Source: Clostridia bacterium
Lineage (GTDB): Bacteria > Bacillota > Clostridia > Oscillospirales > Acutalibacteraceae
DNA: 51,219 nt
NCBI GenBank assembly: GCA_017550625.1
Contig: JAFZOL010000031.1
Location: 1-51,219, forward strand
Direction of reading: 5' to 3'
Shown here: positions 7,193 to 28,460 of the stretch, in pieces
How positions within the stretch are numbered: the first letter of the stretch is position 1
How the letters are laid out: the number at the start of each line of letters is the position of its first letter
Position numbers and translations under genes: made by a program
Notes under the pieces: model-generated
The model's input: the letters and a program-made list of their open reading frames with translations, nothing else
The model's database searches: none
Told to the model about the DNA's origin: nothing

Positions 7193-7221
7193 TTGATTTT
7201 TAACTTTAACTTCACTATAAT
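7193..7221 (+). promoter_or_regulatory. Consensus promoter of the giant gene
   Basis: TTGATT (7193-7198), a 17-bp spacer and a perfect TATAAT (7216-7221) in a locally AT-rich stretch, 230 bp upstream of the giant gene. A second candidate, TTGACA at 7111-7116 with TATAAA at 7136-7141, has a 19-bp spacer and is weaker. Tandem promoters are possible. Confidence 0.8.
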
Positions 7222-7227
7222 AAAATA

Positions 7228-7451
7228 TGTATAAGTGTAAATTGGAGTTGTGCGCCCAAGCAGATCTCCCTCCCGGCGGACGTGGTCAGACGGACGGCGG
7301 GGAACGGGAGAAACGCTCGAACGTCAAAAGCCGATTTTGCGGGTAGGGTCAGAAACACCGAAAAAAAGCCCCGCGTTCCCAAGCAAACACCCCCAGTTTC
7401 CCTGATATGAAAACATGAATTCAATTTCTTTTAGTAAAGGAGAAATGAACG
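7228..7451 (+). other. Long structured 5' leader of the giant gene
   Basis: About 220 nt lie between the predicted transcription start and the start codon. GGGAACG at 7300-7306 can pair with CGTTCCC at 7374-7380, enclosing a G-rich and A-rich interior. I could not match it to a known riboswitch class: the conserved cores of c-di-GMP, c-di-AMP, SAM and purine classes are not evident. AAAGGAG at 7436-7442 is the ribosome binding site. A five-codon ORF (7445-7459) overlaps the start codon out of frame, probably by chance. Confidence 0.45.
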
Positions 7452-10400
7452 ATGACTAGAAAAGCTTCCATCTCGAAGAAAGCATTATCGCTGCTTCTTT
7501 CGACGCTGATGGTTCTTTCCTGCTGCACGCTCGTGTTCCCGATGCTTGTGAAGCATCTCGAGGAGACGGGCCTGCTTCCGACTGCCGAGGCGGCGCCCTC
7601 TGCGAATGATTGGGCCGCGCTTGACGCAGCTTTATCTACGTGGGAAACAAATCAGACGGACAACAACAAATTCCACGTTGTGGAATCGCTTGTTCCCGTT
7701 TTGGTTGGTTTGACAGTCGTTTCTGTTGGCAGAGGCACAATTCAGTACGATGATCCCGATAACTGGACAAATCCTCCTACATCGGGTAATTTCCTCGCGG
7801 ATTTGCGGGATGCCATGTCCTCCAGATACGGTTCAAATTCTGCCAAATATTCTTTGCTTGCAACCATGATTCCGTCTTATACACAAGACGATCGTGATCC
7901 GTTAAACAGAATTACGTGGCATAACACCAATAGTATAACTGGTGAACCGGATATGCCTTCAAACGGACTCTACGGAAACAATGATTCAAGCACAAGCGGT
8001 ACGTCCCAGAATATTGACAAAACGCTTTCGTTTACGCGCGATGTAGAGGATGCATTGCTTGAAGAGACTGGAGCATTTCCGAGTTCTGTCAAAACAACCG
8101 TTAAAATTAAGTACAATATGCGTAGTTATACGGTTGTCGCATCGGGTAGAAACTTCTTGAAGTGGCACAAATCCAGAGGTTCATACTATTATTTCAGTGC
8201 TGTTCCCGAACTGATTTACGAAACGACGGATGTTTCGGCATGGCAAAGTGCTATTCAGACTTATCTGAATTACTTTTCCAATGCGACCATTACGAATCTG
8301 GATGTTTTGTATGATGACACACGATATAATCAGTCTACTCTCAATACGCTGATTACTGACAATACAAACACATTCAATACATATTGGAATAAAACTGCCG
8401 GGATCGATCGCCCGTCGGACTATGTGACCGCGCATTTTGCCAATCAGGTGAATCCCGATCATTATACCAATACGACGATTTATATGCGGGAGGCACAGTA
8501 CGCATATAACTATTTCGTGTTCCGCACCGACGCGATCCGCCTGATGAACAATCTGGCGGATGCGATCGAAAACAGAGATAAGCTGGATATCACCCTGCCT
8601 ACCTTTGATGCGGATTACATGGAAGCGGCGGACGCCAGACAGTTGTATGACGATAATATCGTGATCCGCGATCTGCTGACGGAAAAGATCGGCAGCACCA
8701 CGGACGGCTGGCGCGCTTATCAGAAGCTGAAAACGAAGGACGGGTTTGACGTCGACGTCATCGACGAGACGCTGCAGCTGCTTCTGGACTACTCCGACCT
8801 TGTGGAACTGGCCAGGATCAAGCAGGAGATCGACGGGAAGATCGCGCAGTATCAAAACACCTATAATGACATCGACGTGGTCTCCGATGCTGAATTCAAT
8901 CTGTTGTATTCGGCATTCTCCGGTTATGTCTCGCTTCTGCACAGCAACCGCTATTCCGATTCGGTCAAGGCTTCCGTATTCCCCTCCGGAATGACCTATG
9001 TTGATAATTTCTTCACCCTTCTTGAAGCGGAAGCGGACAGAAGAGCCGTGCTCAGTGAGTTCCGTGAGCTTTATGACTACTTCTATCCCAAAATGCACGC
9101 GGTGTTTTCTTCTTACACCATGCTGCAGCTCGAACGGCGCATTGACGAAGACACCAGAATGTATGAGGGCTATGAGGTCACCAGAGACGTTTATAACGAT
9201 CAGGGCGATGTGATCGGCACCGAAACGGTACAGGTCGGTTATTTGCCCACGCTCGAAAAATATGCCTCTTATCTGAACGATCCCGACGTCCAGGACATCA
9301 TCAATTCCTTCGGCAACGATATCGAGGATTATATCGACGACCTTTACGACCAGATCCAGAATAACCTGATCCTGTACGTCGGCGATGCGATGGAAGCTTC
9401 CGAAGCCGGCACGGTCACCCTGACGCTGTCGAACTTCTCGCTGATCAAGGCTGCGATGGATAAGGTCCGCAATTGCTATTCTTCCGAAACGGTGATCGTG
9501 GACGGCGAAGAGCAGCAGATGCTCTTCTACGATTGGCTCGTTTCCCGCGGAAAAACCGATCTGCTGCAGGCGGCGAACTATACCATCAGGGTCGGCAATT
9601 CCAACCGGAACTATGCCTTCGGCACCAACACCACCACGAACGGCGCGTATTACATCGTGATGCACGGCCCGTTTATGGATGCGTATAAAGAATTTATCGA
9701 ATCCGGCGGTCTGGCAGGGTTCCAGCAGGAGCATTACTATAATCCGTCAACTGGCCTGTTCGAAGACGCCGTGCGCCCCGCCGACAAGACCAAGGATCTC
9801 GGCAGGGGCAACGCGACGGACGTGGATGAGACCTATCGCGTGTTCCGTGAGAACATTGACAGCAGTACGGGCCTTATCAACCAGCTTGATAACTTCCTGA
9901 AGAGCGACGACTTCGTTGCGATCCTGTCCACTCTAATCAAAACGGACAACGGGATGGAAACGATCCCGCTCGGCGACTTTATCATGCAGATGCTCGCCGA
10001 CTTCCTCTTCACGGATGATATCCTGAATATGCTGATGGGGATGCTGTATCCTTCGGTTACAAAGCTTCTCGAAGAAAAGCTGCAGGAACTGGACGGTTAT
10101 GAGATCAATGAAAGCCCTTCGGTCAAAATCTATTTGGATAAGGACATCCGGACCATCGCGTCCGAGATCGGCATCGCGATCTATCCGAATCAGATGGCCA
10201 GCTTCTTCAGCACCAATTTCTCTAACATCTACAGTCAATTGAACGGCAAAACCGTTTGGTCCTCCGTTTTGAATGCCGACGGCGATTTCGTCGGCGTATG
10301 GGGCCTGAATGATATCACCCTTGAGAACAGCAACAATAACTACGCGACCTATTTCACCAACAAGGCCAATCGCTTCAAGCTTGCCATCAGCGCGCTGCTG

Positions 10401-13400
10401 CAGGGACTTGAGCCCTTGCTCTCCGCTTTGCTTGCCGGCAGAGAATTCGGTACTTATACGATTCATGATCTTGCACATGGCACAGTTAAGATTGTTGTTA
10501 ATATTAGTTTGAAAGCGTTTATCAAGGATTTGAAGATCGGCGGCTACGACGGCTATACCAACGCGCTTGCCCCGATCCTGCGCAACCTCGGCATTACCGA
10601 GGCGAACGGCTTAAAAACGCCTTCTCAGATCAGCCAGATCGCGGCGTTGAGCACGTCCTCCGCGAGGATCAACGGCCTTGTCGGTGCGATCCTCGATCCT
10701 GTTACGAATTTCGTTACGGGCACGCTTGCCAATGCGCCCGTCGCGACGCTTCTCAGCGCGATCCCGCAGCTTCTCTACATGATCTCCTTCGATCAGATCA
10801 ACGATTTGCTCGGCAGAGTTACGGTTACCTTCTCCGACGACTCCAAGATCTGTCTGGACTACTCCGCTCTTTCATGGGTCGGTGTGAAACTTACGCGCTT
10901 TATCGAATCGATCTCTCTTTCGCAGTTCATCAACCTGAACGAGATGATCACGGATTTCGATCTCGGCGACATCAACAGCATTCTTGCCTTCATTCTGAAG
11001 AAGGTCTCGCCGGATCTCGAAGGTCTGGCTTTGCCTGTTGTGGACGTCGGCCGTGTGTTGAAATGTGCGAGCCTGACCAATACCACTTATCCGAACACCA
11101 GTATTGAGTGGCATAAGTTCACTACGGATAAGGCGGATATGTTCTACGATATCCTTCGTTGGATCGGCGACGCTCTGAAGAACGAGAGCTTCGTGCGTCA
11201 GATCATCGCGTTGATCTCCGGCGAGAACGGCCGTCAGAATGAGATTATTGAAGAGCTTCTCGACGGCATCAGCCGTGCGGGTACCGGTAAGTTCATCTGC
11301 GGACTTGTGGAATTGTTCCAGCCGGCAAAATTCAACTACAATTCTTATTACACCAACACGACCTATCGCGTTGCCGACTACACATGGTACGGCAAGGATC
11401 AGGCGAACAACAACATGGAGAACAAAGACATCACGTCTTATCTCTACGTCGCCTATAAGAACGACTGGACATATGTGAAGGCGAACACCTTCGTCGAGAA
11501 CGCGGACCGCATCATCACGATGCTGCTCGAGGAACAGCTGACGGCGGAGCAAGTGAACACCTTCGGGGAATTTGTCCAATATTACATTAATAAAGCGTGG
11601 TCCTCCGAGGCCATCTCCACCGTGCTCAGCCTTCTCGTCTCTCTCGGCAAGCTGACCGAGTCGAGCGAGCTGATCACCTACATCATCGGCCGCTTCACCG
11701 ACTCCGGCATGGATCTCGGCGTGTGGTACCGCTCCTACGGTTACCTGTTCCCCGAGCAGTTCACCGGCGAGGGAATCCTTGAAGGCGGCGACGAGGGCGA
11801 TGAAGAAGAGCCCGTGCAGCCCCCGCAGCCCGACGAAGAGGGATATGTGAACCTCCTGCCCGGCCTGACCTATGTCGAGAACCCCTATTACGAAGAGGAT
11901 CTCGATCCCTCCAGCGGCGTTGACCGCAACCGCTTCCTCCGCTATCTGTGGAGCTATAACGGTACGCCCATCGAAACGATTCTCGACGCCGAGACCGGCA
12001 AGATGGAAGGCTCCAGAGAGGTCTTCCAGAACGCCCTCGCCTATATGCTCGAAGGCGGCGCCAGCCCGATGAACGGCATGATGCCCGCCATCGACATCTT
12101 CCTGTCCGGCGCCACCGGAAAGCTTTTCAAACAGGGCACCGGTGCCAACGCGACTTCGCTGCTGACCATCTACGGTTCCAACGGCTATGATTCCGCTCTC
12201 GTCCCGTTCTTCGAGGCTCTCGGCATGAACGAGATCATGAGCAAGGATACGGGCTCGGCCTGGAAGATGAAGACCCAGTCTGAATTCGACGCCATCGGCA
12301 ACGGTGACCCGATCAAGAAGGTCGACTACCTGTTCGACGTTGCGTTCGGCTTCCTTGAGACGCTGCTTGCCGAAGACCCGGATGAGATGATCAAGGATAT
12401 CCTCACCACGGTCATCCCGTCCCTGCTCTACTTCATCCAGTCCAACGGCCTGTCCGTCATGGTCCGCAACCTCTTGCAGCCCGTCCTCACCATCGTGGAC
12501 GACCTGCTGCCCATCATTGACCTGAATCTGGATAATCTCCTGTGCGATCTGCTCGGCGAATACCTCATTGAGGGCGTCCTGCATATGGAATATCCCGATA
12601 CAGATGAAGACAACAATAAAATCAATAATCCTTACAATATCCATATTAAAGATTTGTCCTTCCACGCGCTGGCCGATGTGCTTGAGCGTGTGACCGGGCT
12701 CAACCTGCAGCCGCTGGTCTACGGTCTCGACGCGATCTGCTCCACCGTTGTAACGAAGAATAGTTTCGCTGGTTCCTCTTCCTCCGTGTCTACCAACGCG
12801 TGGATGTCCGATACAACGCCCGGCGAAGGCTATAAGAAGCCCATCTTCCTCAACGGCTCGTTCGTCGATCCCAACACCGGTGAGCGGCAGGCGGTCAACG
12901 ACCCGGCAAACGTGGTCACGATCCTGCTTTCGCTCGTGCTCGATCTCGTCCTCGCCGACTCCAAGGTCGCGGGTAAGACGAACGTCGACGTGATCATGGA
13001 TCTGATCGCCGCGATCACCGGCAACGAGGATACCGATCCCAATTCTATCGTTAATATGATCCCCAAGATCATCGACGCGATCCGCAACCTCGGCATCCCC
13101 GCCGGGTGGGAGCTCGAGCCGAACTGGTTCTACTTCGACAACGACAACGGCGCTTCGAGAGATTACGTCAATTACGCGATCAATTATAAACCCACCATGC
13201 CGACGCGCACGATCTATTATCTGCGCTACGCCGAGAACTTCCACGACGCGTCCGGTGAGCTGACCACCCAGAACCTCTGGAGCCGCGAGCTCGCGTCCTA
13301 TCTCGACGCGTCTCTGGCGTCGCTCGTCGACTACGTGATCTCGCTGGTCGACAAGGATAAGGGCAACGCCGAAACGCTCGGCGAATTCCTCAACAACCTG

Positions 13401-16400
13401 CTCGCCAGCGGCGGCCTTCTTACCGACGCCACCGTCAACGGCCTTGCGAAGACCCTTTACGAAAAGCTCGGCCCCACCATCGAGAAGTTCGCCGACCTGC
13501 TCAACGTCTTCCTCGGGTTTGACATCGAATACTGGAACTCCACGAACTATCCCGAGATCGCCGAAGGCGAAGAGACCGCGCTGACGCTCACGCAGTTTGC
13601 TCAGAGCCTCGTCACGCTGCTCGCCCCGCTCGATAACGCGCAGCCCGGCGAAGACGGCCTTCTTACCTGGCTGCTCGCCGGCAAGAAGATGGCGTTCTTC
13701 CACTCCTATCAGACCACGGGCGGATACACCGAATACATCGTGTCCGACAGGCCCGATAACTACGGCGACGTCCAGGATCTGATCGCCATCCCCGGCGGCG
13801 AAGGCTACTGGCACGTGATCATCCCGCTGTTCGAAGCCCTGGGCCTTGAACTGCCCAAGGTGAACGGCTCGGCGAAGTATCTGCGTGACGAGACCACCCA
13901 CCGCATTTATTACATGAACGGCACGACCCGCGTGGATGCCTCCGGTCAGGAGATCCTGTCCGACGTGCTGACCTGCCTGTTCAGCCAGATCGAGGGCTGG
14001 CTTGCCGTGGATCAGACCACCGGCACCACCAAGCTCATCGACGAGGTGCTCAACCGTCTTGCCAACGTCCTCTATTTCCTGAACGCGAACGGCCTTGCGA
14101 CGTCCGTGATCAATCTGCTTGCCCCGCTGGCGCCGCTGGCCACCGCCATCGTGCCGCTGATCTTCAAGGATCTTCAGATCCCGGCGCAGCAGACCGGTGA
14201 AGAAGACGCGGATTACGAAGAGCGCGTGTTCATCGCCATCATCAACGATCTGCTCGCGACCCTCATCACGAAGGACGCGACCGATCCCGTGACCGGAGAC
14301 CCGATCTATGAGATCGACGAAACGACGGGCGAGCCGAAGCTTGACAACGAGGGCCATCCCATCGTCAAGAAGGTCTCGGCCCTGCCCGAAGGCTTCACGG
14401 TGCTGAACCTCGACCTCGAGATGATCTTCAAGCTGCTGCATTCGCTGCTCGGCATCGATATCAACGGCGCCGTGACCTCCGACTTCAGACATTACGAAGC
14501 CGACAGCAACACCCTGCTCGAAGCCGGCAGCTACAACTACCTCACCAAGTTCTTCCTCGGCGAGCTCACCACCAAGCTGTCCGCGAACGGCGGCAAGTAC
14601 TGGTATATGAACTTCACCGCGGATGAGACCCGCTACGACCTCATCACCATCCTGATCTACACTGCCATGGACGTCCTCAACGACGCCATGAAGACCGGCA
14701 CCGACAACAACGCGTTCTTCGTCAAGCTCCTCGGCAAGACCGAAGAGAAGGATGAACAGGGCAACGCGATCGTCGATGAGGCGCTCGGCCAGCAGAAACT
14801 GACAAACCTTTATAATATACTGCACGCGAAGGTCTCCGGCTACGAAGGCTACGACTGGTTCTACTTCGATAAGGACGCCCGCGACGCCTACTACGCCAAA
14901 GAGGCGTATTCCGACGAGCTCGCCGCCCGCATCAACGCGATCGTTGAGCAGCTGGCGCAGCCGAACGGCAGTTACGTCGTGGATCCCGAAGACACCACGA
15001 TGAGCTATGTCCTTCGCACCTACCTCAACTATCAGAACGACAACTTCTGGAACGCCGAAAAGGCGCTGGAAGTCCAGAACGGCTTCGACGAGCTGATCGA
15101 GACCGTGGTGGGCGCGCTCATCGAGAGTGACGACACCCTGACCGACGAAGAGAAGGAAGGCCTTACCGCCGGCGGTTACATCGATCTCAAGCTCAACGGC
15201 CTGATCCGCAACAATACGCTGATCGTCACCGTGGGCGCTGTGCTCGGCAACCTGATGTCCGGCATGGACGCGCAGCTCGTGGCGCTGCTGCAGAGGGCGC
15301 TGCCGGGCTTCGATCCCACCGCCTGGAACCAGTACGCCGGCAAGAAGGTCGCAGACGAAGAGCATCCCGCCGGCTCCACCGAGACCGACGACGAAGGCAA
15401 CGTGACCACGTATGTGGAGAAGATCGAATACGCCTCCGACGCCGAGTTCATCGCCGCATTCACGGATCTTCTGAGCCCGCTCGGCTACCTGCTCGACTGG
15501 CTGCTGGTCGGCGAGCACAAGGCCATCGAGCTGTTCTACCTCGTCGACGACGACACGAACGTCTCCGGCACCCTTGCCGATACCGCCGCGATCTCCATCG
15601 GCGGCGCCGACGGCTTCAAGAACGGCCTCGTGCCGATGCTCGAGGCGCTGGGCATGACGTTCAACGCCGCGCAGGTCAACAATCCCGCGCTCACCGGCGT
15701 GGGCGCCGTGGAGCTGACCCTGACCTCGCTCATGGCGTGGATCAGAGGCATCACCTCCGCCGACAGCCCGGTGGACGCCCTCGTCGGCTACCTGCCCAAC
15801 ATCATCTACCTCATCAACGCCAACGGTCTCACCGTGACCGTGCTCAACACCCTTCGCTCGCTGACCAACATCCTCGAGCAGGCGGCGGGTCTGATGCAGA
15901 AGGATCCGAACGAGACCACGAACCTCAACACCCTGCTCGGCCTCGACAAGAAGGGCATCGACCTCTACGACCTGAGCCTTGAGGGCATCTGCAATATCGT
16001 CAAGGGCCTCACCGCGAAAGACGGCGAGAACGGCTACGAAGGCCTTGATATTATCAAGGGCGTGTCCCCGGTGCTCGTGGACAACGAGGGCAACCCGATC
16101 CTCGACGAAGAGGGCCACGTCCAGTACCTCGATTCCTATCTCAAGCAGTGGGCGATCGGCGAGGTCGTGAAATACGATTCCGCCGCCGAGGACGCAGAAC
16201 ACGGCCGCGTCTATTACAAGATGCAGTTCACCGGCACCGACCCGATGGAGAAGGTCAACATCCTCACCATCCTGCTCTGCTCGGTGTTCGACGTGTTCCG
16301 CTATGAAGGCAACGAGGGCGTGCTCAAAGCGCTGCTCGGCAAGCTTTCGGATAAGATGGATCTCTACACCGTGATCAAGTCCATCCTCAACATGACGATG

Positions 16401-19400: not shown

Positions 19401-22400
19401 GGCCTCAATATCAACGACGCCGTCACCTACACCTACTCCTACACAGATCCCGAGACCGGCGAAACCGTCTCCACCTATGCGGACGGCAACATCTTCGAGA
19501 CCCTGGCGCTCGGCATCGTGGAGCAGTATGCTTCGCCCGCCAACGGCCAGACCTATTACAGGATGTACGCCACCGCCGGCACCGAAGCCGACGACTACAC
19601 GCTGCACAACGTGGACCTGCTCGCCATCGTGATCGGCGCCGCGCTCGACACCTTCAAGCATGACCCGAACGAGGGCATCCTCAGAAAGTGGCTCGGCGAC
19701 TACTACGCCGTGATCAAGGGCATCCTGAACATCACGGTCGGGGAGTTCGATCCCTATAAGTACGACTGGTTCTACTTCGATCCGGCCATCACCGACGACA
19801 CCGTCAACGAAGATGACGAGCTGGTGCCCGGCACCTGGCGGACCTACTTCCCGACGGACGGCAGCAAGGTCGCCGTGACCTACGCCGGCACCACGACCGA
19901 CTACTTCGCTTACAAGTTCGGCTACCTTGAATACTTCAAGAGCTGGGACGGCCACAACGCCGACGGCAATCTGTGGACCAAGGAGCTGTCCGATTACCTT
20001 GAGCGGAACTTCACCGATCTTATCGACACGGTCGTCTCCGGCATCAAGATCGACGGCAGGACCTACGCGTCCGCGCAGGAGCTCATCTCGACGCTCTGGA
20101 ACAACCTGAACCTCTATTCCAAGAAGAACCTCTACGCGGTCGGCAAGGCCGTAGGCAAGGTCATCGGCGGTCTCGACGAAGTCTATAAAGACGTGCTCGG
20201 CCTCGTGCTCGGCATCAACATCGGCGACTTCACCGAGTATCTCACGAAAGAGCCCACCGACGACGCATCGAAGATCGGCACCACCTATGTCGACGACGAC
20301 GGCAACGTGATCACCTACATCGCGAACGCGTCGCTCGGCCGCACGGCGTTCATCAACGCCATCGCCGACATCGTGGAGCCCGCGGGCATCCTGCTCGACT
20401 GGCTGCTCGCCGGCAAGTCCATTGAGTTCATGTACCTCAAGGACGGCTCCGCCGCCATCTCGCTGCCCGGCGCCAACGGCTTCGACACCGCCCTCGTGCC
20501 GATCATCGAAGCCTTCGGCTGCAACCTGAACGATGCCAACGCCTACTTCACCGCCAACGGCGGCAAGACCGGCCTCAACATCGTCAAGTATGTGGCTGAA
20601 AAGCTGCTCGGCCGCATCGACGACATCGCCAGAAGCACCGAATGCGTGGACGAGATCCTCGCGATGATCCCCGAGCTGCTCTACTTCATCAACGCCAACG
20701 GCCTCGGCGTGTCGGTCAAGAACCTGCTCGAACCCGCCGCGCTGCTGGTGGCGAGCCTCAGCCAGAGCCTTACGGCGCTGAACCTCGGCATCGACCTGTC
20801 CGGCATCCACCACGTGGACGATCTCGTCAACCTTGTGCTCGGCGCGTTGAAGCTCAACGTCACCTTCAGCCTCAACAACCTCGACCTGAGGGGCATCTTC
20901 GATCTGGTGAAGCAGTTCACCGCGAAGCCCGCCGAGGTCGATCCCGAAACGGGCGAGGTCATCACGCCCGCGAAGAACGGCCTCGACATCAACGGCGCCG
21001 TCACCTACACCTACTCCTACACAGATCCCGAGACCGGCGAAACCGTCTCCACCTACGCGGATGGCAACATCTTCGAGACCCTGGCCCTCGGCATCGTGGA
21101 GCGTTACACCTCCCCGGCGAACGGTCAGACCTACTTCAAGATGTACCTGAGCGACGATGATGACGACACAACGCTCAGAACGATCGACCTGATCGCGATT
21201 GTGATTTCCGCCGCGCTCGACGTGTTCAAGTATCCGGCGAACAAAGACTTCCTTGAGCCGCTGCTTGACGGCTTCAAAGAAGGCCTCTACGAGCTCGTGC
21301 TGAAGATCCTGAACGTGTCGGTGAACTTCCACGAAGTCAACTTCGACTGGTTCTACTTCGACCGCGAGCACGTGAGCACCTCCAGCTTCACCGCCCCGGA
21401 TTACCAGATCGTGGTCGACTACAACGACCCGACCAGGGAATACTACATCGAGACCTACACCTATCTCCACTATCTGGCGGAGGACACCGGCAACCTGTGG
21501 AACGCCCAGACCGCCCTGTATATCGAAGAGCACTTCTATCAGCTCGCCGATACCATCATCACGGCCGTGACGAAGGATAAGCCCGAAGGTGAGCGCTTCA
21601 CCTCCATGTCCGCCTTCATCGCGAACGCCTGGAGCAACGCGAACCTGTTCACGAAGAAGAACATCTACACCATCGGCGCCGTCCTCGGCGGCTTCGTGTC
21701 CGGCCTTGACAAGATCTATACCGACCTGATCGGCCTCGTCCTCGGCGTGGACCTCTCCGCCTGGGATGAATACGTCAACAACAAGATCGCGGACGAAACG
21801 CATCCCGCCGGCACGCCGATCTATGATGAGAACAACGTCCAGATCGGTCAGTATATCGCCGACGAAACGCTCACCTACGAGGTGTTCATCGAAGAACTGG
21901 TCGAGATGCTTCGTCCCGCGGGCATCCTGCTCGACTGGATCCTTGCCGGCAAGTCGATCATCTTCATGTACGACAAGGAAGGGCAGCCCGCCCTGAACCT
22001 TGCCGGCGCCTACGGCTTCGACGTGGCCCTCGTGCCGATCCTCGAGGCTCTCGGCTGCGACATGAGCGGCTACACGGCTGTCATTGACCACCGCGACGCC
22101 GACGGCAAGCCCGTCTACGTTACCGAGCTCGAAGGCGAAGAAGTCAGCATTGACGGCGTCTACCTGCTCAAGCTCGCCGCAAACGCCATCCTCGGCAGGA
22201 TCAACGCCATCGCCACCGGCGGCCGCGCGCTGCAGGATGTGGTGGCCATGCTGCCCGAGCTCATCTACTTCATCAACGCCAACGGTCTCGGCGCGTGCCT
22301 GACCAACCTCATCTCTCCCGCCATCCCGCTCGTTGAGATCGCGGCCTCCTTCATGGGCGGCAGCGCCGGGCAGGGCGACGGCGACGACGAGGATGAGCCG

Positions 22401-25400
22401 GAGCTGACCGACGACGAAAAGGTGTTCAGAGCCCTCAGCGGCGTCGTGAACAGCCTCATCGCCCAGTTCGCGCCCAACCTCGGTCTCACCATCGATCTGT
22501 CGAAGCTCAACATCACCGGCATCTTCGATATCGTGGGCGGCGTTCTCGGCCTCGAGATCAACAAGGCGGTCACAAATTCCGAAGAGCACGGCAGCATGAA
22601 CGTCTACAAGACGCTCGCCCTCGGCGTTGTGAAGCAGTATCTGTCCGCCAACGCGCACACCTACTACCGTATGGATCTCGCGCGCAAGGACGAAAACAAC
22701 ACGCCTCTCGCGCCCATCGATATGTTCGCCATCCTGATCGGCAGCGTGGTCGACGTCTTCAAGTATGAAGATAACGAGACCTTCCTGCGCTCGAAGCTCG
22801 GCGACTACTACGACCTGATCGACGCGATCCTGAAGCTTTCGGTCGACGTCTCCTACGTGGACTACGACTGGTTCTACTTCGACGATGAAATCACGCCCGA
22901 TACCTACGACGCCGAGAACCACCTGGTGTCCGGCACCTGGGATGATGCGGAATACTTCGACGAAGTGGGCGACAGAGTCCTCGTCACCTACAACGATTCC
23001 ACCAACATCTACTTCGCGTACAAGTTCGGTTACCTTGAGTATCTCGATCCCGCGAATCAGAACAACGGCAACTTCTGGAACAGAAAGACCGCCGACTACA
23101 TCGAAGCGAACTTCTACACCCTCGTGAACACGATCGTGAAGAACATCGCGATCGACGGCGTGAATTACGAGACCGCCGCGGCGCTCATCTCGCACCTGTG
23201 GTCCGGTGTGAACCTCTACTCCCAGAAGAACGCCTGGGCTGTCGGCTCGCTGATCGGCAAGGCCATCCAGGGCCTTGACGACACAGTCAAGGAAGTGCTC
23301 GGCGTGGTGCTCGGCGTGGAAGCCACCTACTGGAACAAGTACATCGAGGGCGCCACCGGTTACGTGACTCCCACCGAAGAATCGATGGGCAGAGAAGACT
23401 TCCTGAACGAACTTGTCTACATTCTCCAGCCCGCCGACTTCCTGCTCGACTGGCTGCTGGTCGGTGAGACCCACGGGTTCGAACTCCTGTTCGACAAAGA
23501 AGGCGAACCGCTGATCTCCATCAAGGGCGGCAACGGCTTCAGAGAAGCGGTAGTGCCGATCCTCGAAGCCCTCGGCTGCAGCGTGACCGCCGCCGAAGTC
23601 GAAGCGGCGAACACCGGCATCAAGGCCCTGCGCCTGACCGCCGAAAAGCTGCTTGCCCGCATCGACGACATCGCCGCCTCCGAAGACGCGCTGAAAGAGA
23701 TCATCGGCCTTCTGCCCGAGCTCGTCTACTTCATCAACGCCAACGGTCTCGGCACCACCGTGAAGAACCTGCTGGCGCCGGTGGTGGGCCTGCTCGAAAA
23801 GGTCCTGCCCATCCTGCCCGCGAACCTTCTCGGCGACACCCGGATCACCGGCATCGACGACCTGATCAATCTCGTGCTCGCGAAGATCAGAGAGTCCAAC
23901 TCGTCCTTCACGCTCACGCACGTGAGCCTCGACCATCTCGACTTCGTCGGCATCTTCGACATTGTCGGCCAGCTCCTCGGCCTTGAGATCAACGCCGCGG
24001 TGGCCTTCGACGATCCCGAAACCACCGAGATCAACGAGAACCTCAACATCTTCGAGACGCTGACCCTCGGCTGGGTCGAGCGCTACCTGTCCGCCAACGG
24101 CCACGACGACATGTTCAAGAGCTACGTCGCCACCGCCGAAGAAGACCCGAACGGCAACTCGCTCGGCAACGTGGATCTGCTCGCGGTCATCATCAGCGCC
24201 GCGCTCGACGTGTTCAAGTACACGGGCAACGAAGCGTTCCTGCGCGAGAAGCTCGACGGCATCAAGATCGGCCTCTACGACACCATCATGCAGATCCTCA
24301 CCCTCAGCATGGATCTGAGCTACGCGGATTACGACTGGTTCTACTTCGACAGAACCGTCAACGCCGATAACTTCCCGGCCGGCGGCTACGTCGTGCCTTA
24401 CGAGACCGGCACCATGGGTGCGCTCGAGTTCCGCTTCGGTTACCTTGAATACAGAAGGTACTTCAACACCGAAACCAACAACCTCTGGAACAAGACCAGC
24501 GCCGAATACATCTCCGCGAACTTCTACGACCTGGTCGACACCATCATCGCCATCGCCACGAAGGGCAAGGGCGACTACGAGAGCTTCTCGGCGTTCCTGT
24601 CCGATAAGTGGAGCGGCCTGAACCTTTACAGCGAAGAAAAGGTCTGGGCGGTCGGCAAGATGGTCGGCGAAGCGCTTCAGGGCCTCGACGGCGTTGTGAA
24701 AGAGATCCTCGGCCTCGTGCTCGGCGTCGACGTGACCTACTGGAACAAGTACATCCCGGGCGCCGCCGGTTACCAGACGCCCTCCACCGCGCACCTGACC
24801 AGAACGCAGTTCGTCAACGAACTGGTCGCCGTGTTCGAGCCCGCGGGCCTGCTGCTCAACTGGCTGCTGGTCGGCGAAGACACGCCGCTGACGTTCTTCT
24901 ACGACAAGAACGGCGAGCCTGCCGTCACCATCAAGGGCGGCAACGGCTTCAAGATGGCCATCGTGCCGATCCTCGAAGCCCTCGGCTGCAGCGTGACCGC
25001 CGCCGAAGTCAACGGCATCACCACCGGCGTCGCGGCTGTGAGATACACGCTCGACAAGCTGCTTGCCAAGGTCGACGCCATCGCCGCCTCTGAAGACGCG
25101 CTGCGTGAGATCGTCGCGCTCGTGCCCGAACTTGTCTACTTCATCAACGCCAACGGTCTCGGCACCACGGTCAAGCGCCTGGTGGCGCCGGTCGCGAGCC
25201 TGCTCGAATCCATCGGCAGCCTGATCTCTTCCGACCTGAACACGGTGGACGATCTCATCGCCTACGTGCTCGCGAGGATCCCGAACAGCCCGATCACGAG
25301 CCTGTCGCTCGATCACCTGAACATCACGGGCATCTTCGACATCGTGAAGCAGATCACCGGCATCAACATCAACAAGGCCGTCACCTTCGTCCACGAGAAC

Positions 25401-27557
25401 GAATACGAGAACATCTACGAGACGCTCGCGCTCGGCGAAGTGCTCCGCTTCACCTCCGCCAACGGCGAGACCGCCTACAAGATGCACGCGTATCCGCTCG
25501 ACTATCCCGAGAACGAAATCGATCCCGTCAGCAACCCGCTGGCCATCGTCGACATGATCGCGATCCTGGCCGCGACCGTCGTGAACGTCTTTACGCTTGA
25601 CGACGCCGACAACGAGGCCGCGCTCAGAGCGCTGATCAACGACGACAACCTGTTTGAGACCATCAAGAAGGTGCTCACCCTCGAGAAGGACGACAAGTAT
25701 GCGGAATTCGAATGGCTGCATACGCTGGTCCGCGAGAGCGACGGCCTGAGATATCTTGATCCCGCGTATCAGGGCGTCTACGTCTCGCCGCTTGACCGTA
25801 CCTCGTCCATCACCGGCACCGCCGGCTACGACAAGTACTGGACCAAGGAGATGGCGCAGTATGTGGCTGATAACCTCATCAAGGTCATCAACAACACGCT
25901 CCTGCTTCTCGGCATTTCCATCCCGGGCGTCGACGGTCAGGTCCAGTCGATCGACGATCTGATCAACGCTCTGCTTCCGGGCGGCAACCTGTATACCAAC
26001 GAACTGCTCTACAAGCTCGTGTCCGCCATCGTCGGCACCGGCGAAACGAACGAGCAGAACGAGATTGACAAGGGTCTCCTCGGCAAGCTTGACGAGATCG
26101 ATCCCGACGGTCTGATCCGCGAGCTGCTCAACGTGGCGCTGCACATCGACCTCAACAGCCTCAACGCCTACAGGGGCCGCACGAACTTCGGCTTCACCGA
26201 CGGTGACAGAAACGGCTTCGTCAACGCCTTGGCAACCTTCCTGAGCCCGGTATATCCGCTGCTCAAGTGGCTGCTGCTCGACGAAGACATCGCTCTGTTC
26301 TACAACGTCGACAAGACCGACCTCATCAAGCTGCCCGGCGGCAAGGGCTACGAGCAGGCGATCATCCCGCTTATGGAAGCGATCCTGCCCGATAACTCCG
26401 GCATCAAGACGCTCACGCAGTATAAGAACGACATCGCTGCGAACGAGAACGCGATCCTGATCGACATTCTCAACCCGCTGCTCGACTTCGTCGATCAGGT
26501 GCTCGCGGATCCGCTCAACACGCTGCTGCCGCGCCTGCCCGCGATCGTCTACTTCATCAACTCCAAGGGCATCGACACCGTCGTCAAGAACCTGCTCCAT
26601 CCCGCCTATGCGCTGCTCAACGCGGTCACCGCGCTTGTGGATATCGACATCGACGAGGAGATCAGGAAGCTCATTGGCTTCAGCCTTGACGAGCTTGACT
26701 TCGACGCGATCGTCGAAGTGGTCCTGAACCTCCTGCCCGCGAACCTGTCGAGCCTGAAACCGCTGATCCTCGACGCGATCAACGAGTTCACGATCGGTAA
26801 GATCGTCCAGAAGCCTTCGAAGGCGACCTACGTCTCGTGCAAGAACGTGGCCTACAGCTACTTCTTCACGATGGTCCTCTCCGACGATCCGTCGCAGGCC
26901 GGCACCGGCATCCTCGGCTCGCAGAACGCTTCGCTTGCGGATCTCATCACGATCCTGCTCAGAGCGATGCTCAAGTGGCTCACGCTGCCCGAGAACCAGC
27001 CCACGGTCAGACAGTTCCTGACTGACAACATCGAAAACGAAGACGTCCGCTCTTACGTGCTCGCCGTTTACGGCAAGAACTCGCAGGAGACCAACGGTTC
27101 TCCCACCGGTCTGCTCGGCTTCCTGCCGCAGCCTTACGGCATCAGCATGATGATGGGCCTGATGTACTACATCTACTTCGCTTGGAACGTCACCAGCGAG
27201 CAGGCGATCAGCTTCGCCGGCAGCGCAGGCAAGTACTGGAAGTACGTTGCGGGCACGCTCGCCACGGTCAACATCCCGTACATCCAGCCCGTGATCCAGT
27301 ACATCACCGAGCTCATCCAGAGAGTCGAAGAGAGAGATAACCCCGGCGGCAACAACGGCAACGACAACCCGTCGAATCCGTCCAACCCGTCCAACCCGAG
27401 CAACCCGTCGAACCCGTCCAACCCGTCCAACCCGTCCAACCCGGGCAACAACGGCGGCAACAACGGCAACTCCGGCCAGAATCTCAACTTCTTCCAGCGG
27501 ATCATCAAGTGGTTCCAGGATCTCTTCGCCAAGATCGCAAGGATCTTCGGCAGATGA
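7452..27557 (+). CDS. Giant exported repeat protein, 6,701 residues, unknown function
   Basis: One uninterrupted frame of about 735 kDa. Residues 1-49 are an export signal: a basic n-region, LSLLLSTLMVLSCC core and possible cleavage near TAEAA; VLSCC could alternatively be read as a weak lipobox. Residues 50 to about 1,000 are helical and lack the main repeat. Residues about 1,000-6,450 hold eleven divergent modules, each with these landmarks in order: LALGIVE..., YDWFYFD, an FxYLEY/W segment, NLYS...VG, LLDWLLAGKSI, a G(A/G)xGF...PILEALGC block and PELIYFINANGL. Acidic linkers occur near 1,441-1,460, 3,360-3,380 and 4,970-4,985. The C-terminus has NPS triplet repeats (about 6,640-6,668) and an aromatic amphipathic tail. 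No LPXTG, SLH or enzymatic motif seen. ATG supported by AAAGGAG 9 nt upstream. Likely a surface or matrix fibre or adhesin (inference). Confidence 0.9.
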   Translation: MTRKASISKKALSLLLSTLMVLSCCTLVFPMLVKHLEETGLLPTAEAAPSANDWAALDAALSTWETNQTDNNKFHVVESLVPVLVGLTVVSVGRGTIQYDDPDNWTNPPTSGNFLADLRDAMSSRYGSNSAKYSLLATMIPSYTQDDRDPLNRITWHNTNSITGEPDMPSNGLYGNNDSSTSGTSQNIDKTLSFTRDVEDALLEETGAFPSSVKTTVKIKYNMRSYTVVASGRNFLKWHKSRGSYYYFSAVPELIYETTDVSAWQSAIQTYLNYFSNATITNLDVLYDDTRYNQSTLNTLITDNTNTFNTYWNKTAGIDRPSDYVTAHFANQVNPDHYTNTTIYMREAQYAYNYFVFRTDAIRLMNNLADAIENRDKLDITLPTFDADYMEAADARQLYDDNIVIRDLLTEKIGSTTDGWRAYQKLKTKDGFDVDVIDETLQLLLDYSDLVELARIKQEIDGKIAQYQNTYNDIDVVSDAEFNLLYSAFSGYVSLLHSNRYSDSVKASVFPSGMTYVDNFFTLLEAEADRRAVLSEFRELYDYFYPKMHAVFSSYTMLQLERRIDEDTRMYEGYEVTRDVYNDQGDVIGTETVQVGYLPTLEKYASYLNDPDVQDIINSFGNDIEDYIDDLYDQIQNNLILYVGDAMEASEAGTVTLTLSNFSLIKAAMDKVRNCYSSETVIVDGEEQQMLFYDWLVSRGKTDLLQAANYTIRVGNSNRNYAFGTNTTTNGAYYIVMHGPFMDAYKEFIESGGLAGFQQEHYYNPSTGLFEDAVRPADKTKDLGRGNATDVDETYRVFRENIDSSTGLINQLDNFLKSDDFVAILSTLIKTDNGMETIPLGDFIMQMLADFLFTDDILNMLMGMLYPSVTKLLEEKLQELDGYEINESPSVKIYLDKDIRTIASEIGIAIYPNQMASFFSTNFSNIYSQLNGKTVWSSVLNADGDFVGVWGLNDITLENSNNNYATYFTNKANRFKLAISALLQGLEPLLSALLAGREFGTYTIHDLAHGTVKIVVNISLKAFIKDLKIGGYDGYTNALAPILRNLGITEANGLKTPSQISQIAALSTSSARINGLVGAILDPVTNFVTGTLANAPVATLLSAIPQLLYMISFDQINDLLGRVTVTFSDDSKICLDYSALSWVGVKLTRFIESISLSQFINLNEMITDFDLGDINSILAFILKKVSPDLEGLALPVVDVGRVLKCASLTNTTYPNTSIEWHKFTTDKADMFYDILRWIGDALKNESFVRQIIALISGENGRQNEIIEELLDGISRAGTGKFICGLVELFQPAKFNYNSYYTNTTYRVADYTWYGKDQANNNMENKDITSYLYVAYKNDWTYVKANTFVENADRIITMLLEEQLTAEQVNTFGEFVQYYINKAWSSEAISTVLSLLVSLGKLTESSELITYIIGRFTDSGMDLGVWYRSYGYLFPEQFTGEGILEGGDEGDEEEPVQPPQPDEEGYVNLLPGLTYVENPYYEEDLDPSSGVDRNRFLRYLWSYNGTPIETILDAETGKMEGSREVFQNALAYMLEGGASPMNGMMPAIDIFLSGATGKLFKQGTGANATSLLTIYGSNGYDSALVPFFEALGMNEIMSKDTGSAWKMKTQSEFDAIGNGDPIKKVDYLFDVAFGFLETLLAEDPDEMIKDILTTVIPSLLYFIQSNGLSVMVRNLLQPVLTIVDDLLPIIDLNLDNLLCDLLGEYLIEGVLHMEYPDTDEDNNKINNPYNIHIKDLSFHALADVLERVTGLNLQPLVYGLDAICSTVVTKNSFAGSSSSVSTNAWMSDTTPGEGYKKPIFLNGSFVDPNTGERQAVNDPANVVTILLSLVLDLVLADSKVAGKTNVDVIMDLIAAITGNEDTDPNSIVNMIPKIIDAIRNLGIPAGWELEPNWFYFDNDNGASRDYVNYAINYKPTMPTRTIYYLRYAENFHDASGELTTQNLWSRELASYLDASLASLVDYVISLVDKDKGNAETLGEFLNNLLASGGLLTDATVNGLAKTLYEKLGPTIEKFADLLNVFLGFDIEYWNSTNYPEIAEGEETALTLTQFAQSLVTLLAPLDNAQPGEDGLLTWLLAGKKMAFFHSYQTTGGYTEYIVSDRPDNYGDVQDLIAIPGGEGYWHVIIPLFEALGLELPKVNGSAKYLRDETTHRIYYMNGTTRVDASGQEILSDVLTCLFSQIEGWLAVDQTTGTTKLIDEVLNRLANVLYFLNANGLATSVINLLAPLAPLATAIVPLIFKDLQIPAQQTGEEDADYEERVFIAIINDLLATLITKDATDPVTGDPIYEIDETTGEPKLDNEGHPIVKKVSALPEGFTVLNLDLEMIFKLLHSLLGIDINGAVTSDFRHYEADSNTLLEAGSYNYLTKFFLGELTTKLSANGGKYWYMNFTADETRYDLITILIYTAMDVLNDAMKTGTDNNAFFVKLLGKTEEKDEQGNAIVDEALGQQKLTNLYNILHAKVSGYEGYDWFYFDKDARDAYYAKEAYSDELAARINAIVEQLAQPNGSYVVDPEDTTMSYVLRTYLNYQNDNFWNAEKALEVQNGFDELIETVVGALIESDDTLTDEEKEGLTAGGYIDLKLNGLIRNNTLIVTVGAVLGNLMSGMDAQLVALLQRALPGFDPTAWNQYAGKKVADEEHPAGSTETDDEGNVTTYVEKIEYASDAEFIAAFTDLLSPLGYLLDWLLVGEHKAIELFYLVDDDTNVSGTLADTAAISIGGADGFKNGLVPMLEALGMTFNAAQVNNPALTGVGAVELTLTSLMAWIRGITSADSPVDALVGYLPNIIYLINANGLTVTVLNTLRSLTNILEQAAGLMQKDPNETTNLNTLLGLDKKGIDLYDLSLEGICNIVKGLTAKDGENGYEGLDIIKGVSPVLVDNEGNPILDEEGHVQYLDSYLKQWAIGEVVKYDSAAEDAEHGRVYYKMQFTGTDPMEKVNILTILLCSVFDVFRYEGNEGVLKALLGKLSDKMDLYTVIKSILNMTMGEIEYAPYDWFYFDDEIINDATFNQKDANDGAADHKVAVEYDNSTFGYLAYIGKFKGATNNIWNETTAKNIKTGLYEVLDTIVSGIEFGEGDEARTYASVDELISTLWGGLNLYSWENIYKIGSLVGGLLTDVDATITTVLKVLIGIDLSSFANYVNKEITDDPTLDGVKFNKVKNAETGEEEIVIAADGEYTYVYKESLTMSREAFVNEIVSLLEPAGFLLDWLLAGKSIKVLYQKETDETGAPLPQIELTGAYGFDVAIIPLMEALRCDMSGYASLVASRDDDNNPVYYESGANEPTIGVKLLKLAANALLARIDEIAAYDPENPTAHSPLKAIVEMLPELIYFINVNGLSVSVGNLLVPAIGLVDAVGALLPASAEEEPGTTEPGTEPGTTEPEDLSSYDRVVRSLNKIINGLDAVKKLGITVDLGDLTLNGILKIAEQALSTPAVVDPETNEVTTPAKTLSIIDAVTHYTDSSNVVHETPNIYATLALGIVEQFTSANTDTAYRMLADETEYVQGEFNARTIGGIDMFAILLSTLLDVFRYSGNEAFLREKLDPLGSGIYDLVIKILNMRLDFTYAAYDWFYFDPAIENAAQFENGARVNASGNKERTVSYQGTELDYFAYKFGYLEYFRYWNGAETSANIWTKDFADNLADKFYTIADLIITAVTGKEANEADRYTSMSKFIADKWNGLSLYTKGNLYKIGSLIGNAVGGIKGVAADVLKLVLDIDLSAWDEYVNNKIADETHPVNTEIVDEETGEVIGHYIADEDLTYQQFVDALVGMLEPAGILLDWLLAGKSISLFYTNGGGAQIELPGADGYGRALVPILEALGCEPVASHFNASTPYNGVNVLKYTAELLLGRIDEIANSKDSENNPNCLNVIMSMIPELLYFINSNGLYVSVINLLAPVTALIADLGPSLTALGLPLPAGLAEIETADDLVNMVLGMLYKEDGTGLLKTPITFDSGKLDIVGILDLVRQITAVPASVNEETGEPIPAVPGLNINDAVTYTYSYTDPETGETVSTYADGNIFETLALGIVEQYASPANGQTYYRMYATAGTEADDYTLHNVDLLAIVIGAALDTFKHDPNEGILRKWLGDYYAVIKGILNITVGEFDPYKYDWFYFDPAITDDTVNEDDELVPGTWRTYFPTDGSKVAVTYAGTTTDYFAYKFGYLEYFKSWDGHNADGNLWTKELSDYLERNFTDLIDTVVSGIKIDGRTYASAQELISTLWNNLNLYSKKNLYAVGKAVGKVIGGLDEVYKDVLGLVLGINIGDFTEYLTKEPTDDASKIGTTYVDDDGNVITYIANASLGRTAFINAIADIVEPAGILLDWLLAGKSIEFMYLKDGSAAISLPGANGFDTALVPIIEAFGCNLNDANAYFTANGGKTGLNIVKYVAEKLLGRIDDIARSTECVDEILAMIPELLYFINANGLGVSVKNLLEPAALLVASLSQSLTALNLGIDLSGIHHVDDLVNLVLGALKLNVTFSLNNLDLRGIFDLVKQFTAKPAEVDPETGEVITPAKNGLDINGAVTYTYSYTDPETGETVSTYADGNIFETLALGIVERYTSPANGQTYFKMYLSDDDDDTTLRTIDLIAIVISAALDVFKYPANKDFLEPLLDGFKEGLYELVLKILNVSVNFHEVNFDWFYFDREHVSTSSFTAPDYQIVVDYNDPTREYYIETYTYLHYLAEDTGNLWNAQTALYIEEHFYQLADTIITAVTKDKPEGERFTSMSAFIANAWSNANLFTKKNIYTIGAVLGGFVSGLDKIYTDLIGLVLGVDLSAWDEYVNNKIADETHPAGTPIYDENNVQIGQYIADETLTYEVFIEELVEMLRPAGILLDWILAGKSIIFMYDKEGQPALNLAGAYGFDVALVPILEALGCDMSGYTAVIDHRDADGKPVYVTELEGEEVSIDGVYLLKLAANAILGRINAIATGGRALQDVVAMLPELIYFINANGLGACLTNLISPAIPLVEIAASFMGGSAGQGDGDDEDEPELTDDEKVFRALSGVVNSLIAQFAPNLGLTIDLSKLNITGIFDIVGGVLGLEINKAVTNSEEHGSMNVYKTLALGVVKQYLSANAHTYYRMDLARKDENNTPLAPIDMFAILIGSVVDVFKYEDNETFLRSKLGDYYDLIDAILKLSVDVSYVDYDWFYFDDEITPDTYDAENHLVSGTWDDAEYFDEVGDRVLVTYNDSTNIYFAYKFGYLEYLDPANQNNGNFWNRKTADYIEANFYTLVNTIVKNIAIDGVNYETAAALISHLWSGVNLYSQKNAWAVGSLIGKAIQGLDDTVKEVLGVVLGVEATYWNKYIEGATGYVTPTEESMGREDFLNELVYILQPADFLLDWLLVGETHGFELLFDKEGEPLISIKGGNGFREAVVPILEALGCSVTAAEVEAANTGIKALRLTAEKLLARIDDIAASEDALKEIIGLLPELVYFINANGLGTTVKNLLAPVVGLLEKVLPILPANLLGDTRITGIDDLINLVLAKIRESNSSFTLTHVSLDHLDFVGIFDIVGQLLGLEINAAVAFDDPETTEINENLNIFETLTLGWVERYLSANGHDDMFKSYVATAEEDPNGNSLGNVDLLAVIISAALDVFKYTGNEAFLREKLDGIKIGLYDTIMQILTLSMDLSYADYDWFYFDRTVNADNFPAGGYVVPYETGTMGALEFRFGYLEYRRYFNTETNNLWNKTSAEYISANFYDLVDTIIAIATKGKGDYESFSAFLSDKWSGLNLYSEEKVWAVGKMVGEALQGLDGVVKEILGLVLGVDVTYWNKYIPGAAGYQTPSTAHLTRTQFVNELVAVFEPAGLLLNWLLVGEDTPLTFFYDKNGEPAVTIKGGNGFKMAIVPILEALGCSVTAAEVNGITTGVAAVRYTLDKLLAKVDAIAASEDALREIVALVPELVYFINANGLGTTVKRLVAPVASLLESIGSLISSDLNTVDDLIAYVLARIPNSPITSLSLDHLNITGIFDIVKQITGININKAVTFVHENEYENIYETLALGEVLRFTSANGETAYKMHAYPLDYPENEIDPVSNPLAIVDMIAILAATVVNVFTLDDADNEAALRALINDDNLFETIKKVLTLEKDDKYAEFEWLHTLVRESDGLRYLDPAYQGVYVSPLDRTSSITGTAGYDKYWTKEMAQYVADNLIKVINNTLLLLGISIPGVDGQVQSIDDLINALLPGGNLYTNELLYKLVSAIVGTGETNEQNEIDKGLLGKLDEIDPDGLIRELLNVALHIDLNSLNAYRGRTNFGFTDGDRNGFVNALATFLSPVYPLLKWLLLDEDIALFYNVDKTDLIKLPGGKGYEQAIIPLMEAILPDNSGIKTLTQYKNDIAANENAILIDILNPLLDFVDQVLADPLNTLLPRLPAIVYFINSKGIDTVVKNLLHPAYALLNAVTALVDIDIDEEIRKLIGFSLDELDFDAIVEVVLNLLPANLSSLKPLILDAINEFTIGKIVQKPSKATYVSCKNVAYSYFFTMVLSDDPSQAGTGILGSQNASLADLITILLRAMLKWLTLPENQPTVRQFLTDNIENEDVRSYVLAVYGKNSQETNGSPTGLLGFLPQPYGISMMMGLMYYIYFAWNVTSEQAISFAGSAGKYWKYVAGTLATVNIPYIQPVIQYITELIQRVEERDNPGGNNGNDNPSNPSNPSNPSNPSNPSNPSNPSNPGNNGGNNGNSGQNLNFFQRIIKWFQDLFAKIARIFGR
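10410..26660 (+). repeat. Eleven-copy intragenic module array (470-580 aa period)
   Basis: Using the Tyr of the PELIYFINANGL motif region as anchor, copies lie at about residues 1108, 1659, 2207, 2785, 3327, 3874, 4410, 4938, 5425, 5895 and 6366 of the giant protein. Spacings are 551, 548, 578, 542, 547, 536, 528, 487, 470 and 471. DWFYFD (NWFYFD in the first) precedes the anchor at about 1891, 2468, 2992, 3566, 4105, 4632, 5139 and 5628, and is degenerate (EWLHTL) near 6087. The first and last copies are the most divergent. Confidence 0.88.
27367..27455 (+). repeat. 9-bp repeats encoding NPS linker
   Basis: Tandem TCCAACCCG-type 9-mers encode about nine Asn-Pro-Ser triplets between glycine/asparagine-rich stretches. 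This is a flexible, wall-spanning-type linker just before the aromatic C-terminal tail of the giant protein. Near-identical codons point to recent slippage expansion. Confidence 0.85.
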
Positions 27558-27592
27558 TCGGAGCCCCGTGAACCGTAACACCCACTAAACAG

Positions 27593-27731: not shown

Positions 27732-28460
27732 TTGCTTGAGCTTCAGAATATATCGTTTCAGGTGAGCGACGACGGGTCCGGCAAAGAGATCATCCGCGAC
27801 GTGAGCCTCACGGTGCCTGATAACGAACTCATTGTGATCACCGGCCCGAACGGCGGCGGCAAGTCCACGCTCGCGCGCCTCATCGCCGGCATCGAAAAAC
27901 CCACCGCCGGGCGTATACTCCTCGACGGCGAGGATATCACCGACAAAAGCGTCACCGACCGCGCAAAACTCGGCGTGGCGTTCGCCTTCCAGCAGCCCGT
28001 GCGCTTCAAGGGCATCCGCGTGGTGGACCTGCTGCGCCTCGCGTCCGGCAAAAAGCTGTCGGTCGCCGGGGCGTGCGAATACCTGTCCGCCGTGGGCCTG
28101 TGCGCCAACGACTACCTCGAGCGTGAGGTAAATGCCAGCCTCTCGGGCGGCGAATTAAAACGCATCGAGATCGCGACGGTTTTGGCGCGCGGCGCGCGGC
28201 TCTCGGTGTTCGACGAGCCCGAGGCCGGCATCGACCTGTGGAGCTTTCAGAACCTCATCGAGGTGTTCAAGAATCTCAGAAAACGCATCGTGAACAGCTC
28301 GCTGCTCATCATCTCGCATCAGGAGCGCATTTTGAACATCGCGGACGAGATCGTGGTGATCAGCGCCGGGCAGGTCGAGCGGCAGGGGAGCCGCGCCGAG
28401 GTGCTGCCCACGCTCACGGGCACGCGCGCGGCGGTCAAGGGCTGCCGCAAGGCGCAGTAA
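27732..28460 (+). CDS. sufC: SufC-like Fe-S assembly ATPase (SmsC type)
   Basis: A 242-residue soluble ABC ATPase that drives the SufB-type scaffold. Walker A is GPNGGGKST (residues 38-46, K44). The signature LSGGELKR starts at L137 and Walker B ends FDEPEAGID (D161, E162). The SufC-typical glutamate-containing EPEAGID segment distinguishes it from transport ATPases, and there is no permease nearby. The start is TTG at 27732 with AGGAG 7 nt upstream. It is followed after 12 bp by the scaffold gene. The pair lacks sufS, sufD, sufU and sufA, which matches the minimal two-gene SMS arrangement described for anaerobes. This system is expected to be O2-sensitive and to serve general Fe-S assembly. 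Confidence 0.9.
   Translation: MLELQNISFQVSDDGSGKEIIRDVSLTVPDNELIVITGPNGGGKSTLARLIAGIEKPTAGRILLDGEDITDKSVTDRAKLGVAFAFQQPVRFKGIRVVDLLRLASGKKLSVAGACEYLSAVGLCANDYLEREVNASLSGGELKRIEIATVLARGARLSVFDEPEAGIDLWSFQNLIEVFKNLRKRIVNSSLLIISHQERILNIADEIVVISAGQVERQGSRAEVLPTLTGTRAAVKGCRKAQ

Follow-up and report, generated by a model that had tools for sequence, protein, structure and literature searches.

The window, by which we mean the whole stretch of 51,219 nucleotides that was analysed, is the complete contig C46 of a draft genome of 80 contigs (G000), and 39% of it (20,106 of 51,219 bases) belongs to a single gene. ORF calling on the + strand gave a frame at positions 7452–27557, free of internal stops, for a modular protein of 6,701 amino acids that is predicted to be exported, which bears out the claim of an earlier note on this DNA that one uninterrupted 20.1-kb gene makes up this share of the window. 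A promoter and a ribosome binding site had also been claimed, and both are present: a sigma-70-like match, TTGATT-17-TATAAT, at 7193–7221 (a consensus match only, at 10 of 12 positions), and AAAGGAG at 7436–7442, read from the sequence shortly 5' of the ATG. The 500-base upstream region holds 3 promoter-like sites, counting both strands, vs 0.6 in shuffles. All features described below lie on the + strand unless otherwise stated.

Ends of the giant protein, codon usage and neighbouring genes

The signal peptide region (7452–7595) carries the motif KKALSLLLSTLM, with a regex lipobox match at Cys24 and an AxA-type site; the signal-like N-terminus was confirmed, export itself being a prediction. 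A KxLSxxLSxLM-like motif was found in 37 of the 41 giants with a closed 5' end and in 3 of 413 neighbouring ORFs, a control set of mechanically called frames of 110 aa or more. Judging from these letters, the window giant could be processed by either the lipobox or the AxA-type route. It could be proposed that the giants are lipoproteins, lipidated at the signal-peptide cysteine, since the lipobox regex matches 17 of the 41 closed 5' ends, the window giant included, and an Lgt-like gene stands directly upstream in 10 loci (PF01790 was tested on one representative); a Cys occurs in 34 of the 41 closed signal regions. However, the AxA-type site is also present in 37 of the 41 giants, among the 10 loci that have Lgt upstream no more than 3 match the lipobox, and the synteny of Lgt can be explained by lineage inheritance, so we consider lipidated giants rather unlikely. 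By the same count of 3 in 10, Lgt is a weak candidate as a dedicated partner and was set aside.

The signal peptide is followed by a region in which Pfam detected no domain and whose codons are poorly adapted (7596–10322), then by the module array. At the other end, a flexible Asn/Pro/Ser/Gly linker (27345–27482, read from the sequence) precedes an amphipathic tail, LNFFQRIIKWFQDLFAKIARIFGR (27483–27554). Of the 55 giants whose 3' end is closed, 54 end in an aromatic, cationic amphipathic tail of this kind (52 of 53 when only distinct C-termini are counted), while none of six short members of the family and 6 of the 413 neighbouring ORFs pass the same rule, some of these six resembling antisense frames. 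The rule was fixed after viewing the tails found by a stricter regex, applied first, which matched 39 of 61 closed members and 3 of the 413 neighbours. Both signals, motif and tail, occurred together in one neighbour, a 625-aa protein of L087. The sole exception among the 55 giants, L069, has a frame that stops inside the array, with a further module piece after it in the same frame, as in a broken gene or a sequencing error. Judging only from its hydrophobic moment and aromatic count, the tail may bind membranes. Other anchoring devices were noted by eye in variants of the family: a C-terminal transmembrane (TM) helix with a basic tail, a lipobox, or VPTGD followed by a TM helix and RKRK. At the C-terminus of the window giant no LPXTG-like motif with TM helix and basic residues was seen by eye, and Pfam at E up to 10 returned no SLH, LysM or CWB2 wall-binding domain, in agreement with the earlier statement that the protein has no sortase motif, SLH domain or enzyme domain, none being found in this inspection or in Pfam and NCBIfam.

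Codon usage was compared with a ribosomal-operon reference set, which includes secY, adk, map and one doubtful ORF. From codon 1141 on, the index of the giant is 0.76, reaching 0.82 within this part; 18 neighbouring genes range from 0.61 to 0.79 and only one of them, SufBD-like, lies above 0.76. The AGA share of Arg in the module region is 0.22 (84/262 in the ribosomal set, 0.04 in the neighbours) and the GGG share of Gly is 0.02 (20/357 and 0.16, respectively). This ribosomal-like codon use suggests high expression of the module region. The first 1,140 codons (7452–10871) have an index of 0.46 and a GC3 of 0.64, vs 0.86 after; a GC3 that is low at the 5' end and then rises was also observed in two other members of the subgroup, L037 and L040. 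This part may be a long ramp or of mosaic origin. An antisense ORF of 5,569 aa (10872–27581, − strand) was rejected as a gene. It lies codon-on-codon in register with the giant gene, and we took it to be a by-product of strong codon selection, TTA, CTA and TCA being almost absent there (1 per 5,561 codons from codon 1141 on, vs 33 per 8,379 in the 18 neighbouring genes).

No conserved partner gene of the window giant was seen among its neighbours, which are mostly housekeeping-like, and each of the neighbour clusters of other giants is limited to at most 10 loci. Downstream of the giant, the ABC ATPase at 27732–28460 looks like SufC, a SufBD gene being next. The window also encodes an exported subtilase of 1,716 aa (31370–36520, PF00082), ending in CKYCGEVH...FLYLMQEAARFFTSLV; this end is hydrophobic and resembles by eye the tail of the giant, in a weaker form, and a similar tail, CKYCGKTH, ends an 808-aa exported protein in L040. 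In eight loci (L058, L059, L074, L079, L085, L088, L091 and L092) a sensor kinase and a response regulator, recognised by sequence, lie near the giant on the opposite strand, upstream of it in seven; the pair is a possible regulator of the giants or a case of lineage synteny.

The module array

A profile built from six modules gave eleven matches between residues 958 and 6441, and a YFINANGL-type anchor recurs in eleven copies, at residues 1109, 1660, 2208, 2786, 3328, 3875, 4411, 4939, 5426, 5896 and 6367, so that the dominance of one repeated module, already proposed, was confirmed in two ways. The repeat length, taken as the spacing of anchors, is 470–578 residues in the window giant and mostly 375–500 in its relatives. 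By profile and tree, the recognisable cores of module 1, which is degenerate, and module 2 lie at 10323–10790 and 12009–12731, respectively, and are followed by module 3 (13173–14870), module 4 (14877–16442) and six copies, modules 5–10 (16443–25718; profile, tree and models), which group with module 5 of the orthologues: 16443–18164, 18168–19781 and 19785–21362 for modules 5–7, and 21375–22883, 22884–24350 and 24384–25718 for modules 8–10. Module 11 (25830–26774) is orthologous to the last module of the relatives. The aromatic clusters that the earlier note had called invariant are not so: DWFYF is found in seven copies, not in all, and PELIYFINANGL differs among copies. In 100 modules, the invariant or nearly invariant positions are F154, P164, W171, G175, G196, G199, E209, L211, Y263, F264, N266, G269, N276, G362, S369 and N421. 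Being mostly aromatic residues, Gly, Pro and Asn, they do not suggest a catalytic set, although one Glu and one Ser are near-invariant and might still support some activity of the module.

The draft state of the genome, in 80 contigs, and the inverted duplication of another contig, C59, in the stretch compared, could raise the suspicion that the array is an assembly concatenation, or the frame open by chance. Self-comparison of the array revealed repeats over residues 950–6600 that are only 18–57% identical in 300-residue windows, one stretch of 86 residues reaching 76%, and the relatives of the giant are intact single frames in other assemblies. Because the copies have diverged and the relatives are intact elsewhere, concatenation, named in the earlier note as a finding that would refute its reading, is excluded; with the purifying selection on the relatives reported below, we find an artefact or a chance frame barely credible. 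The chance ORF was rejected on copy divergence, intact relatives, orthology of the modules and purifying selection. A phage origin was discarded with no relative among viral contigs and none in PHROGs at E 0.01, and a plasmid origin with no relative in plasmids by tblastn with one module.

The module could not be assigned to a known domain, as had been stated before. For the window giant, the best Pfam match at E up to 10 had E 0.032 and 14.5 bits vs a cut-off of 27, NCBIfam gave no match approaching its cut-off, and PHROGs gave none at E 0.01. At 0.05 or better, Pfam also returned nothing for the N-terminal regions of two relatives, for three short members, for 7,020 residues of a 10,516-residue relative or for 2,900 residues of a paralogue. 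Against PDB sequences, profiles of one module and of two reached E 0.079 and 0.034, with unrelated proteins. Of a poor pair alignment, A3 (120 rows, 4,740 columns), 63 rows were kept. The model of the module (pLDDT 85.8, pTM 0.86) is a compact mixed alpha/beta unit, at variance with the Leu/Ile helical solenoid envisaged earlier. Foldseek placed HEAT proteins (CAND1, exportin) at the top of the PDB, with E 0.03–0.2 and TM 0.07–0.09, which we took as noise, and found no match in BFVD; on this model, which is a confident one, the fold of the module is apparently unmatched.

The growth of the array was followed in a tree built from 53 modules of the window protein and of seven proteins closely related to it. 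Starred clades by position were recovered for modules 1, 2, 3 and the last; a starred clade also unites module 4 of the window with that of its four nearest relatives, the others joining less firmly. Window modules 5–10 fall among the module-5 copies of the orthologues, with open inner forks, and the complete orthologues L037, L038, L040 and L041 have six modules each, which indicates that six modules became eleven via one interior position, by amplification of module 5. In L036, four copies group with module 4 instead, at an open fork. The last module is the best conserved, being 63–68% identical to that of three orthologues. The dN/dS ratio (NG86) is 0.17–0.24 for four modules between L034 and L035, and 0.107/0.535 (about 0.20) across 3,514 codons of the giants L051 and L054, as judged from which the modules and giants of the relatives are under purifying selection; for module 1, between L034 and L040, substitutions are saturated.

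The family and its short members beside an ABC transporter

The giant is not the isolated curiosity that it had seemed: its family extends across the lineage, and at least five more members are encoded in the same genome, namely a giant paralogue of 6,951 residues on C22 (codon index 0.82), a 3,082-aa protein on C72 (L011; 0.65), a frame after it on the same contig with 2,161 residues or more, and two short members, a TM-anchored protein of 1,027 aa on C59 and a lipobox protein of 1,037 aa on C60 (0.74 and 0.66). On C59, the two stretches L012 and L013 are identical inverted copies of 8,780 bases, and the paired matches to the family, to an elongation-factor-type protein and to ABC proteins are mirrored about the middle of the contig, which looks like an assembly palindrome.

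A stretch of the window used as query matched all 25 genomes of the same genus; of 10 further genomes of the family 4 matched, and from other families of the order none of 23 did. Within the family, profile A5 was found in 63 of 398 genomes, spread over 21 of 135 genera. The order sample of 295 genomes gave three positives: the genome of the window itself, a second member of its family, and a genome of a different family that is 75% complete. Among 341 genomes of the class and among 348 of the phylum, the genome of the window was the sole positive; the four samples overlap and were drawn from larger groups. In the samples searched, hardly any occurrence of the module family lies outside a single bacterial family of uncultured Clostridia. 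The 64 named loci, collected from genome contigs by one peptide pattern, bear the titles of uncultured Clostridia, Clostridiales, Eubacteriales, Oscillospiraceae, Ruminococcaceae or Ruminococcus, and 40 of these titles give the gut of a ruminant as the source (goat, roe or water deer, sheep, water buffalo, yak, cattle). The longest open frame in the family has 10,643 residues. For the pairs L075/L076 and L046/L047, from goat cecum and goat rectum MAGs counted as different species, the contig parts with the 10,643-residue frame are 100% identical over 20,849 and 13,142 bases, a result of either recent transfer or a shared binned contig.

The short members, of about 850–1,100 residues, consist of two modules and end, by eye, in a TM helix with a basic tail, carry a lipobox, or have a sortase-like end. 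In 19 of 24 distinct short-member loci a gene for a protein of about 915 aa with ABC_tran and FtsX domains lies downstream on the same strand, at distances from an overlap of 10 bases to 446 bases; the two domains were tested on L093 and L012, the others being assigned by relatedness. These loci come from a set of six, with the transporter in five (L012 and L093–L096; not L014), and from one of 20, with the transporter in 16, which was hand-picked from the short frames found and is not a random sample; two loci are in both sets (L107 is L093, and L102 is apparently L096). The five loci without such a transporter are L014, L116 and L121, with a lipobox, and L108 and L109, with two modules and a C-terminal VPTGD, TM helix and RKRK, which we take to be a sortase-like motif. 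The external domain of the transporter has a mean identity of 66% over eight rows and is better conserved than its short partner (20–42% identity to the first row of A5).

Of the 398 genomes of the family, 22 have a close transporter, which scores over 600 bits with the external-domain profile, and each of these 22 is module-positive; at genus level this holds for 6 of 6, vs 21 module-positive genera of 135 overall. The hypergeometric probability of this association is 7e-20 for genomes, which are not independent, and 7e-6 for genera. The next matches after these 22 score 401 bits or less, and 170 of the 398 genomes have some match at E 1e-40 or better. Since all 22 are positive and the close transporter is absent from 41 of the 63 module-positive genomes, the coupling is specific to the short form and not required for the giants.

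These data support the main rival to the surface rod proposed below, namely that the module is a ligand-handling scaffold of a type VII (MacB/FtsX-like) ABC system, in which a hydrophobic or peptide ligand would be bound outside, the short form working with the pump and the giants storing or relaying the ligand. Such a role would suit the close transporter directly downstream of most short members, the restriction of its 22 genomes to the module-positive ones (63 of 398 overall) and the mechanical work outside the membrane ascribed to type VII transporters in the available text of PMC5985334. On the other hand, the close transporter is missing from most module-positive genomes, its distant relatives occur in many module-negative genomes, and no ABC-FtsX gene adjoins the window giant, which makes this explanation unlikely. 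A bolder form of it, which we regard as quite unlikely, is that a dedicated type VII ABC transporter hands the module, a new extracytoplasmic domain, its cargo, hydrophobic or peptide, the giants being tail-held chains of cargo sites. If this were true, they would set about five to over a dozen such sites across the Gram-positive envelope, as a relay or reservoir of accordion-like length, tuned by duplicating one interior module.

A probable surface rod and its place among known systems

We favour, with a probability of about 0.55, the reading that the giant is a surface rod, made of copies of a new extracellular domain, which is abundant, exported and tethered to the membrane. The signal peptide, of the KxLSxxLSxLM type, would send the chain through Sec, and the chain would fold outside, each module into a compact alpha/beta unit; beyond the flexible linker, the tail of 24 residues, cationic and aromatic, could bind the membrane from outside, or the nearby wall zone, and hold the rod, which would reach outward through the wall. 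The length of the rod would be set by the copy number of the duplicating interior module, the terminal modules staying in place. Its role is likely structural or adhesive, towards fibre, host mucus or other cells, rather than catalytic. What the data show directly is the anatomy of the sequence, the homology of the modules and the affinity of the extra copies to module 5, the signals in common, the purifying selection on relatives, the codon adaptation and the fold of the model; from these we infer export, the tether, the shape and abundance of the rod, and adhesion. Of the giant surface solenoid or fibre proposed in the earlier note, the surface rod is probable and the purely helical solenoid gave way to the mixed alpha/beta model. 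Against the rod stand the low codon indices of the first 1,140 codons and of L011, codon adaptation being in any case an indirect measure of abundance, and the ABC transporter link of the short relatives hints at a role beyond that of a passive rod.

High codon adaptation and the presence of several giant paralogues per genome could also be expected of an S-layer-like or coat protein, with the giants assembling laterally into a sheet; the lack of a match to an SLH or other wall-binding domain in Pfam or NCBIfam, and an array length varying among orthologues (6 vs 11 modules), awkward for a lattice, render a sheet rather improbable.

Whichever role the giants may have, the domain family occupies tens of kilobases per genome in uncultured gut Clostridia. 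It offers two signals that can be tested, the shared signal-peptide motif and the amphipathic tail at the C-terminus, which may anchor the protein to the surface without sortase, as well as a two-module relative, linked to an ABC transporter and small enough to be expressed and studied. A 6,701-residue 'hypothetical' is thus made tractable, the pump link of the short members being a first handle on function.

Among known systems, the short form resembles partners of type VII ABC transporters: the accessible parts of PMC5985334 describe MacA-type extracytoplasmic partners, and those of PMC12646458 and PMC7668044 name EnvC, LolA and TesA. Like these, the two-module short form is probably extracytoplasmic and its gene lies next to that of an ABC_tran and FtsX protein, as in the 19 loci described above; unlike them, it is made of a module with no sequence match and apparently no fold match to solved structures, and no such transporter gene adjoins that of the window giant. 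With wall-anchored surface proteins the family shares the surface display of long proteins and, in L108 and L109, a sortase-like C-terminus; the giants differ by ending in the amphipathic tail, and the window giant shows neither sortase motif nor wall-binding domain. In the parts available of a largely open-access literature on giant genes and the largest proteins, amphipathic anchors, rumen repeat proteins and FtsX operons, we recognised no description of the module family. Surface proteins are one of the two main classes of bacterial huge proteins, according to the portion of PMC11573180 available, which also reports Reva and Tummler (2008). The window giant, whose repeated module is absent from Pfam and NCBIfam, represents a new domain family; as a giant surface protein, it is an object of this known kind, with which it shares a very long intact frame of thousands of residues, a repetitive architecture and a signal predicting export.
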